Source: Campylobacterota bacterium
Lineage (GTDB): Bacteria; Campylobacterota; Campylobacteria; Campylobacterales; Arcobacteraceae
Assembly: GCA_003643835.1 (NCBI GenBank)
Contig: QMKX01000007.1
Coordinates: 1-61,701, forward strand
Reading direction: 5' to 3'
Length of the DNA: 61,701 bases
The translations under genes and the position numbers were made by a program. Every line of letters begins with the position of its first letter. The first letter of the stretch is position 1. Of this stretch, positions 40,501 through 44,556 are shown one piece after another. The notes beneath the pieces are model-generated. The model ran no database searches, had not been told where the DNA came from, and worked only from the letters and a program-made list of their open reading frames with translations.

Positions 40501-41322
40501 CTAATCAAATCTCATAGAAAAATCAAGCCAAACTGCTTGGTGTATAATAGCGCCACTGCTTATAGCATCTACACCGGTATCAAGATAGTTGGCTATAGTA
40601 TCTAATGTTATGTTGCCGCTTGCTTCTAACAATATGTGAGGATAATTTTTATCTCTGTATTTTGATACTTTGGTTATAAGCTCGTATGTCATATTGTCGC
40701 ACATAATTATATCAGCTCCTGCTTCCATAGACAAAACACTTTGTTCATAGGTTTCACACTCCACTTCTATCTTAGTTACCCAAGATATTCTTTTTCGTGC
40801 TTTTTTCATGAACTCTTTTAAGTTTGGTATTGTTTTAAGATGTGTATCTTTAAGCATCAAACAATCATCAAGTCCCAACCTATGATTTATAGCGCCACCT
40901 ACTCTTGAGGCATATTTTTCAAAGTTTCGTAAAAGTGGCCTTGTTTTTCTTGTATCTAAAAGAACGACATTTGAGTTTTGAAGTAGTTTGGCATATTTTG
41001 AAGCTTGTGTAGCTATACCAGAAGCATGTTGAAGCATATTTAGAAATGTTCGTTCACTGCTTAATAGTATAGAAGCTTTACCTTCAAGAATAGCTATAGT
41101 GTCGCCTTTTTTGACTATATCGCCATCAAGAAGACAAAACTTACAATCAAATTTTTCTGATTTTGATAAAACTTTAGCATATTTAACTCCAGCTAATATT
41201 CCACCATTTTTGGCTACAACTCTAGCTTTAAAGCGCCCTTTTGGGGCTATGTCGAAAAAGAGATCGCCTCGACCATTATCTTCTATTATCGCATTTTTGA
41301 CAAATTTTTTTATATCCACCAT
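40501..41322 (-). CDS. nadC: Nicotinate-nucleotide pyrophosphorylase (quinolinate phosphoribosyltransferase)
   Basis: Converts quinolinate and PRPP to nicotinate mononucleotide in NAD synthesis. LLDTRKTRPLLRNFEKYA, GGAINHRLGLDD and LMLKDTHL form the PRPP/quinolinate site; EVECETYEQ and EASGNITLD follow. 273 residues. A single-gene unit with a TAAAAT -10-like box (41344-41349 on the minus strand) and GGGTGGA before the ATG. Confidence 0.94.
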   Translation of the reverse strand: MVDIKKFVKNAIIEDNGRGDLFFDIAPKGRFKARVVAKNGGILAGVKYAKVLSKSEKFDCKFCLLDGDIVKKGDTIAILEGKASILLSSERTFLNMLQHASGIATQASKYAKLLQNSNVVLLDTRKTRPLLRNFEKYASRVGGAINHRLGLDDCLMLKDTHLKTIPNLKEFMKKARKRISWVTKIEVECETYEQSVLSMEAGADIIMCDNMTYELITKVSKYRDKNYPHILLEASGNITLDTIANYLDTGVDAISSGAIIHQAVWLDFSMRFD

Positions 41323-41392: not shown

Positions 41393-42371
41393 ATGAAATA
41401 TGTATTTGTATTTTTTATTTTATTTGTGTTGTTGTAGCAGATGATAGCTTTGACGACAAACAAGTTTATTTTTTGCAAACAATTGAAGTGCAAAGTTGCG
41501 ATAAATTTAGTTGTGTAAAATAAAAAATAAAAAACAATATATAAAGAAACAATATTATAATATAGATAAAAATGGTTTTGTTTCATTAAAAACTGGACAA
41601 AACATAAAAACTTGGACATATGTAAAAAGCTCTTATATTGACAATAAAGATAAATTAAAACAATGCATACACAAATACGCAACAGACAACGAAAAAAGAA
41701 ACATAAAAGTAGGATATATCAAAATCCAATTGATAAAAAGATGTTCAAATAAAATAAAACAAAATGAAAATATCTCAAAACAACAATATGAAATACAACA
41801 GATAATAAATAGCACAAAAAAATATACAAATAATCATAAAGAGCAAAAAATATCAAACAAACAAAATATATTTGTAGATATGGCATTTGGTTTGGGAAAA
41901 ATTGAGATACAAAACACTGTAGATGAGAGTAAGCTTACAAATGATACATTAGATGAAAATGGTATAAATTTTAAAATAGGTATCGGTTATAGATGGACAC
42001 AAGAGCTATATAGTCAGTTGGAGCTTGATAAAATAGATATTGACAATAGTGATATAGATAGCATTTATGCCTCTTTGAACTACAGGTTTTTTGAAACTAA
42101 CTTTAAGTCATATTTGGGTATAATGCTGGGAGTCAGTCAGCTAAAGTGGCAAAGTAGTCCTATGAAAAATTATCACGGAAATAAAATTGATAGTTCATTG
42201 CAATCCTTGTATGGTGCCAAGCTTGGTTTAAGCAAAATAATTTATAAAGATACAGAGGTTTTTGTATCATATAGATTGTTAAAAGTTGATTTTAAGACTA
42301 TAGTTGAAGGCGATACAATATATCACAAGCTTATCAATAGCTTAATTTTAGGAGTAAGATATGATTTTTAG
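41393..42371 (+). pseudogene. Outer-membrane beta-barrel protein gene disrupted by two single-base frameshifts
   Basis: An ATG at 41393 opens a signal peptide (MKYVFVFFILF) that hits TAG at 41435-41437. The next frame continues as VVADDSFDDKQVYFLQTIEV and SCDKFSCVK to TAA at 41521. The third frame (TTG 41511 onward) carries KIKNKKQYIKK and the rest to 42371. Each change is -1, and restoring one T near 41411-41425 and one A near 41517-41526, both homopolymer runs, joins them into one protein of about 325 residues. The C-terminal half (IFVDMAFGLG... to GVRYDF) is a small outer-membrane barrel ending in Phe. Phase variation, decay or sequence error are all possible. It overlaps the lipoprotein gene by 11 bases. 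Confidence 0.75.
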
Positions 42372-44556
42372 ATATAGCTTTGTATTTTTGATACTAACAA
42401 GCTTGATTCTAAACTCTTGCAGTAAAGATTCTCAATACAACAACGCAAAAACATCAAACGATACAAACGATACACAACCCACCACTGTTCAAGCACCAAA
42501 TATATCAGGCTCTATAAATATTATAAATGGCAATTTTGATACCCCAATATCTATATGGACACCTATAAATAGTTCGCCAAATGCAGTAGATAGTTGGAGC
42601 ATATCTCCAGCTATATCATGTGGGTTGAATTTTGATACAACTACAGGAAAAATTAGCGGAACTCCCAACTGTGCAGATGAGATGTTTTTTGAGATTTGGG
42701 CAATTAATACAGGAGGAATATCTACTAAAACTGTTGTAGTCCGTATAAATAAAGCCACCCAAACCATAGATGCCGACATAGATAGAACAGTAGGTATTAG
42801 CAATGCTACATTTACACAAGATATACTAACAAACGGAGCAGGAAGTGGTGCTATATCGTATAAAATAAGCGATGATACCATAGCTACGATCAACCCTTCT
42901 ACTTCACTTGTCGCATTTATCAAAGCAGGAGTAGTAACAATCACAGCTACTAAAGCATCAGATAGTAATTATCTTGAGACAACTGATAGTTATATGTTGA
43001 CTATATTTGATGATGAAAAACCAACTTTGAGTATGGTGAGCATAAGTTCCAACAATATTTTAAATGCAAATAGTTTTGCCAAAGAGAGTGATGCAATAAA
43101 GGTGAAGTTTAATAGCACAGAACCTCTTAATGTATCTACAATAAATGCTACAATATCAGGGCGAGTAACGAGTATAGGTGATAGAGGCGATAGCGATGAA
43201 ACAACATTTGATGCTACTATTACTATGATAGAAAGCGATATCGAGGGTAATATAACATTTAATATAACAGGATTTGAAGATATTCAAGGAAATATAGGCA
43301 ATACAGTTTCATCTACAACCGATAGTAGCAGTATAGTTTATGACAAAACAGCCCCAGTGATAACAACTACCAATAACATAACTATAGATGAAAATATCAA
43401 ATTAATCACAACAATAGTAGCCCACGACAATATAGCACTACCAAGTAGCCCATATAGCCTTGACGGTGCAAATTATGACAATCAGTTTATCATTATAAAC
43501 CAGACAAATAGTGAGTTAAGCTTTAAGATAAAGCCAAATTATGAAGCACCAAAAGATGACAATAAAGACAATATTTATGAAATATTTTTCAAAACCACAG
43601 ATAAAGCAGGCAACGAAACAAATACAACCTTAAGAGTATTCATAGCTAATATAGCAGAGCCTCTCATATCAAAGTGGAGTGTATTAACTGGCGATACTAT
43701 AACTATATCTGCATCTGTTAACTGGGGTATTGATTATGATATACTATGGGGTGATGGTAGTAGTGATATGGGTGTAGCCACAAGAAATTATTCACATACT
43801 TATGCAAATACCGGCATATATATTGTAACTATAAATAGAAAATTCCCTGGTTTTAAATTTAATAATAGCAGCCAAAAAGACAAAATTATATTCATAGAAC
43901 AGTGGGGCGATATAGCTTTGAAAAGTATGAACACAGTTTTTTATGGGTGCTCAAATCTACAAATAAATGCCACAGATAGCCCCAATTTACAATCAACAAC
44001 TTCTATGGAGCGTGCTTTTAAAAATGCTACAAATATAAGCGCCGATATAAACCATTGGGACACTTCAAGAATAACTAATATGAAAGAGGCATTTTATGGT
44101 GCTACGAACTTCAATAGCGATTTAAACAATTGGAATATGTCAAATGTTTTAAATACATCAAGTATGTTTTATGGTGCTACATCATTCAATGGTAAAATAG
44201 ACAAATGGAACACCGCAAATATAACAACTATGGATAGAATGTTTAATGGTGCTACGAGTTTCAACCAAGATATAAGTAGCTGGAATGTAAGTCAAGTTAC
44301 AAATATGGCAAATATGTTTAGAGGTGCCACAAGTTTTGACCAAAATTTAGCAAGTTGGAATATATCAAGTGTAACAAATATAAACAATTTTCTAAGAGGT
44401 GCTACCATGAGCACACAAAACTATAGTAATACTTTGGTAGGTTGGAGTAGTTTATCGCCACAAATAGGCGAGAGTTTTCATGGAGGCAATAGCAAATACA
44501 ACACAAACGGACAAATAGCAAGAGATGATATTGTCAATAATTTGGCTGGAATATAA
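42361..44556 (+). CDS. Surface lipoprotein with Ig-like domains and BspA-type repeats (DUF285)
   Basis: 731 residues. Signal peptide ending in the lipobox LNSC (Cys about 20). Then a putative Ig domain (about 45-135, with LNFDTTTGKISGTP), an Ig-like domain (about 136-215), cadherin-like stretches (about 220-440) and a PKD-like segment (WGDGSSDMGV...YSHTYANTGIYIVTI). The C-terminal part (about 540-690) has about five BspA-type repeats of 25 residues, for example MFNGATSFNQDISSWN and MFRGATSFDQNLASWN. Such proteins usually mediate adhesion or binding. Start has TAGGAG upstream; it overlaps the preceding barrel gene. Confidence 0.88.
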   Translation: MIFRYSFVFLILTSLILNSCSKDSQYNNAKTSNDTNDTQPTTVQAPNISGSINIINGNFDTPISIWTPINSSPNAVDSWSISPAISCGLNFDTTTGKISGTPNCADEMFFEIWAINTGGISTKTVVVRINKATQTIDADIDRTVGISNATFTQDILTNGAGSGAISYKISDDTIATINPSTSLVAFIKAGVVTITATKASDSNYLETTDSYMLTIFDDEKPTLSMVSISSNNILNANSFAKESDAIKVKFNSTEPLNVSTINATISGRVTSIGDRGDSDETTFDATITMIESDIEGNITFNITGFEDIQGNIGNTVSSTTDSSSIVYDKTAPVITTTNNITIDENIKLITTIVAHDNIALPSSPYSLDGANYDNQFIIINQTNSELSFKIKPNYEAPKDDNKDNIYEIFFKTTDKAGNETNTTLRVFIANIAEPLISKWSVLTGDTITISASVNWGIDYDILWGDGSSDMGVATRNYSHTYANTGIYIVTINRKFPGFKFNNSSQKDKIIFIEQWGDIALKSMNTVFYGCSNLQINATDSPNLQSTTSMERAFKNATNISADINHWDTSRITNMKEAFYGATNFNSDLNNWNMSNVLNTSSMFYGATSFNGKIDKWNTANITTMDRMFNGATSFNQDISSWNVSQVTNMANMFRGATSFDQNLASWNISSVTNINNFLRGATMSTQNYSNTLVGWSSLSPQIGESFHGGNSKYNTNGQIARDDIVNNLAGI

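Follow-up and report, generated by a model that had tools for sequence, protein, structure and literature searches.

Several described systems border on the locus examined here. The small outer-membrane beta-barrels of PF13505 (OMP_b-brl) resemble it in having a C-terminal barrel, although the present family adds one or more SH3-like domains at the N-terminus, and the bacterial SH3 domains of PF08239 find weak matches among its members. Phase variation in Campylobacter, as treated in PMC6321876, offers the likeness of a surface gene lying out of frame, and the same paper sets simple-repeat cut-offs of 10 A/T or 7 G/C; the tracts at the present locus are, however, too short, and the second of its two breaks lies outside any tract. 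The GeneTack catalogue (PMC3711429) likewise deals with coding regions containing reading-frame transitions, whereas the transitions at this locus are not kept in relatives, which points to decay or error. Last, RcsF/OmpA complexes and Slam-dependent surface lipoproteins share with the locus an outer-membrane barrel tied to a lipoprotein, but the link in our case is a genomic one, known from genes alone.

The window, by which we mean the entire 61,701-base stretch analysed, is contig C7 of a 40-contig Arcobacteraceae genome (G000) of 1.43 Mb (1,434,794 bases), which is small and AT-rich (33% GC in the portion sampled). We take this genome and Campylobacter to belong to the same bacterial order. 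Between nadC, on the minus strand, and the gene of a 731-aa lipoprotein sits a barrel gene that is read in three frames. It is probable, in our judgement, that this gene is a recently inactivated pseudogene in a small AT-rich genome of the family; what we see looks like the ordinary recent loss of one gene, and neither an on/off switch nor a general sequencing fault.

The split gene and its intact relatives

The features of the locus are as follows.

40501–41322, minus strand: nadC (quinolinate phosphoribosyltransferase), the divergent neighbour, conserved.
41393–41437, plus strand: ATG and hydrophobic leader (signal-peptide) frame, closed by TAG; relatives' leaders lie at L003:1069 and in L004.
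41396–41436, plus strand: break 1, exact site uncertain, hydrophobic in either frame.
41437–41511, plus strand: middle segment, corresponding to relatives' residues 17–41, in the second frame; 18/24 identical to the G001 gene.
41503–41514, plus strand: break 2, in the conserved CD..WC motif, 5' of an A-rich run.
41514–42371, plus strand: body, assigned by homology as the rest of the SH3-like N-domain, linker and C-terminal beta-barrel (OMP_b-brl), in the third frame.
42350–42363, plus strand: AGGAG and lipoprotein ATG inside the barrel's last codons, with an 11-base overlap.
42361–44556, plus strand: lipoprotein gene, intact, with lipobox LNSC, weak Ig-like/PKD hits and DUF285/PARCEL repeats.

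The leader frame opens at ATG 41393 and runs for 14 codons to a TAG at 41435–41437, the middle frame offers no ATG, GTG or TTG upstream from which the middle segment could start (codon list), and the barrel frame, callable from TTG 41511, is open for 286 aa. The lesions that remove the product are thus present in the record as it stands: leader, middle and barrel occupy three frames, and the middle one is startless. A six-frame search matched 41404–41538 to residues 6–50 of a relative with one TAA inside (E 1.5e-8), and the body at 41514–42368 is identical to the G001 gene at 168 of 290 positions. The earlier note had proposed that signal peptide, middle segment and barrel lie in three successive frames of one secreted barrel gene split by two breaks, and both the reading of the frames and the intact relatives bear this out.

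Those relatives are single, uninterrupted ORFs of 326 aa in the same place, between nadC and a DUF285 gene, in G001 and G002, out of three further genomes of the genus that were compared, and the match of the split gene to these syntenic copies is far beyond chance. The G001 gene, from a genome of the same genus as that of the window, was matched at 100% identity in JAOZTH010000024.1, from a metagenome-assembled Arcobacteraceae bacterium, and it is by this kinship that the window is placed in the family. The third congener, G003, has members of the family and no close copy, its best match reaching 27% identity. When 16 genes of the syntenic 40.5–58.9 kb stretch were compared, the barrel gene alone was broken in the window. 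The window genome further carries two intact, full-length paralogs, L010 and L013.

Against the PF13505 cut-off of 28.7 the G001 and G002 orthologs score 35.3 and 29.4, which places them above it, and the fragment in the window scores 22, which places it below. The PF08239 cut-off of 27 was not reached by the paralogs L005 and L013 (22.7 and 16.3), and the orthologs gave no hit to this family; both weak matches adjoin the first CD..WC segment. NCBIfam supplied no useful name for the barrel, and AlphaFold modelling of the G001 ortholog (two sequences) gave a mean pLDDT of 39.6. The intact form, as the two congeners carry it, is a secreted protein in which the signal peptide is followed by an SH3-like domain bearing the CD..WC motif (this domain would be periplasmic), then by a linker of low complexity and, at the C-terminus, by a small outer-membrane barrel; the whole may be an envelope protein, probably working with the lipoprotein to which its gene is coupled. 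In the window, two separate breaks within the first 125 bases would part the leader from the middle and the middle from the barrel, and since the three are uncoupled, no secreted barrel should be producible.

Position and age of the breaks

In the 11 family members that were aligned, a Cys-Lys pair (Cys43, Lys44) is invariant and follows a near-constant Cys-Asp and, usually, a Trp. In the window this Cys-Lys belongs to the barrel frame, where it begins at 41514, just 5' of the A-run. When every possible switch point was scored against both relatives, the maximum of 120 fell at residues 42–43 (41511–41514), and scores were at most 110 from the A-run onward. As barrel-frame homology starts at 41514 and the switch scores peak at 41511–41514, the second break must be placed upstream of the A-run, and not within it at 41517–41526 as the earlier note had it; contingency at the A-run is ruled out by this placement. 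The note's other site, a T-rich run, is compatible with the first break, but that break could lie anywhere in about 41396–41436 and cannot be placed more finely within the leader because that stretch is hydrophobic in either frame.

The runs beside the breaks, T6 and A6, fall short of the at least 10 A/T or 7 G/C expected of a homopolymer contingency tract. Such runs are ordinary in this genome: the window contains 328 A/T runs of at least six, 38% of the positions in 41393–41880 lie within 12 bases of one, and the genome sample holds 413 A/T runs of eight to ten. The N-terminal part of the broken gene is itself AT-rich (20% GC, vs 36% in G001), which could favour mutation or miscalling alike.

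The age of the lesion was judged solely from amino-acid identity and counts by codon position, since dS took large values or had none defined for several pairs. The ratio of third-position to first- and second-position differences over the body is 2.19 against G001 and 1.91 against G002, compared with 1.84–2.14 for the intact paralogs of the window genome and 1.92 for the intact neighbour. Because the body's codon pattern resembles that of the intact paralogs, the break would be a young one; if the gene is truly broken, it broke recently, and the same paralog-like pattern would equally be expected of a gene that is whole.

Frame breaks across the genome and the competing explanations

A scan for split frames covered 801,701 of the 1,434,794 bases of the window genome and returned 3 split ORFs among 209 when compared with G001 and 5 among 283 when compared with G002. 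Each list contained one false hit, in one case an antisense ORF spanning rpsE/rplR and in the other a stretch where no reading frame is clear and which probably represents RNA genes (the names DedA and rpsE/rplR are our own, drawn from Pfam hits and reading frames). Besides the barrel gene, four real-looking breaks remained, namely a one-base difference in a short A-run of a DedA-type gene, a break outside any run in a WYL regulator, an insertion in a small gene, and deletions and stops in an aminotransferase gene. The last of these is decayed at about 1960–2360 of L119 (G000:C16), and its intact G002 copy lies near nadC at L023:841–2031. The reverse scan, in raw hits, gave comparable figures, with 3 rows from 204 ORFs for G001 and 4 rows, arising from 3 ORFs, among 273 for G002.

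The principal rival to gene loss is that the cell carries an uninterrupted gene whose record has been split by two local assembly or base-calling errors, and we regard this as unlikely, if deserving of serious weight. The body evolves as intact genes do, the one-base A-run difference in the DedA-type gene is of an error-like type and so counts against the pseudogene, as does the confinement of both breaks to the first 13% of the gene, and drafts of the genus may contain some errors, given that an Orn/DAP/Arg-family decarboxylase gene of G001, which is expected to be needed, is comparably split at L021:16476–17842 by some 100 extra bases (a possible error or an insertion). Splits in the window genome are nevertheless rare and mostly of a non-error type, and the second break is not at a homopolymer; scattered errors are improbable because two breaks in one gene are not to be expected at so low a rate of splitting. 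The earlier note's suggestion of systematic homopolymer undercalling fares poorly by the same survey: the genes aligned to G002 contain 131 A/T runs of eight to ten and 1330 of at least six, and frame breaks are very few and of mixed kinds, so that undercalling of this sort is ruled out by the genome sample. We infer that the DNA is correct as assembled, and the pseudogene is favoured by the position of the second break outside a homopolymer and by the intact syntenic copies in G001 and G002.

Contingency-type phase variation, the other suggestion of the earlier note, would have a sub-population of cells in frame and switching by slippage in the runs. The gene is one for a surface protein, the first break falls in a T-rich stretch, and the lineage does possess G/C tracts of 8–18, several of them inside lipoprotein genes or at their starts. 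We nonetheless consider this explanation very improbable here, as runs of six lie under the published cut-offs, the second break is not in a run, both switches would have to be right simultaneously, and neither G001 nor G002 has a long tract at either site. Recoding, whether by programmed frameshifting or by transcriptional slippage, would allow some full-length protein to be made, and the body's retained coding pattern and the presence of AT-rich runs in the vicinity speak for it; relatives, however, use a single frame, the split is not conserved, two events would be required, and the second break shows no slippery sequence by eye, such that we give recoding scant credence. A shorter protein genuinely starting at TTG 41511 is suggested by the open 286-aa ORF, but it would be deprived of the signal peptide and of half of the conserved CD..WC motif, no ribosome-binding site is evident by eye, and relatives start about 120 bases upstream, at the signal peptide, with a Trp codon where the TTG stands; the idea that orthologs keep such a short protein is excluded by their sequences, and that the window should encode one is barely conceivable.

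The G/C tracts of the lineage merit description of their own. The 801,701-base sample contains four of at least eight bases (G9, C9, C8 and C14), three of which are located either within lipoprotein-like genes or at their 5' ends. The G9 tract, at L024:14578–14586 (G000:C1), stands in a lipoprotein gene just past its start codon, and in the sequence as recorded the lipoprotein body is out of frame. This tract is a strong candidate for genuine phase variation by poly-G, and has the appearance to be expected of a contingency locus in the lineage. The C9 (L031:19468–19476) and C8 (L033:251–258) tracts are both in the 5' part of lipoprotein genes, and the C14 tract is at L119:53–66. A search of one open-access library found no paper on phase variation and homopolymers in the Arcobacteraceae, and its match for poly-G phase variation in Arcobacter concerned Helicobacter alone.

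Returning to the probable pseudogene, its loss was probably tolerated, with the intact paralogs L010 and L013 present in a small AT-rich genome that has other broken genes. Genome reduction in the Arcobacteraceae is touched upon in PMC12453579, which concerns other genomes.

Overlap of the barrel and lipoprotein genes

Of the 19 family loci that were examined across the four genomes of the genus, 10 have a lipoprotein gene 3' of the barrel, and at nine of the 19 the two genes share an identical 11-base overlap, stop included (42350–42371 in the window, L003, L004, L005, L008, L009, L011, L012 and L017). A GGAG-type ribosome-binding site and ATG within the barrel's final codons were seen at the seven overlap loci that were inspected in sequence. 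The remaining nine of the 19 loci are without such a neighbour, the paralogs L010 and L013 included. The partner is missing at L013 (G000:C25); the relatives of this paralog in G001 and G002 are followed by a lipoprotein gene. In other genera the lipoprotein gene is directly upstream at four of the eight loci examined (one further locus is without a candidate and one is a duplicate; L166, L171 and L174–L189 fall outside the count), and lipobox-like starts occur at a background of 50 in 774 ORFs. As orthologous loci are not independent, these counts of overlaps and neighbours are descriptive. The partner lipoproteins vary in their domains (DUF285, cadherin-like, Ig-like and Fib_succ_major-like), several of which score below cut-off.

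The barrel ends in G-V-R/K-Y-x-F-stop, which we take to be the usual outer-membrane insertion signature. It is tempting to see in this arrangement a dedicated pair, in which the last codons of a barrel with a periplasmic SH3-like domain serve as the ribosome-binding site and start of a variable surface-lipoprotein gene, each lipoprotein is made right after the barrel by which it is anchored or displayed, and the barrel half has newly been lost in the window genome; this is a speculative proposal, and we think it doubtful, the function of the pair being read from gene arrangement. No paper evidently on the overlap of barrel and lipoprotein genes appeared in a search of one open-access library. 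The lipoprotein gene of the window should still be translatable, since within the 3' end of the barrel gene it keeps a ribosome-binding site and start of its own; this start signal is intact, which allows the lipoprotein to be made even if the barrel is not.

By itself the locus means little, as a single further case of recent gene loss in an Arcobacteraceae lineage with a small genome, and it warns against taking short A/T runs beside a break as evidence of phase variation in AT-rich genomes. If the dedicated pair were real, however, a genome that has lost the barrel and kept the lipoprotein would constitute a natural test of whether the lipoprotein reaches the surface, and the recurrence of the overlap offers a testable idea as to how surface lipoproteins may be displayed in this family.
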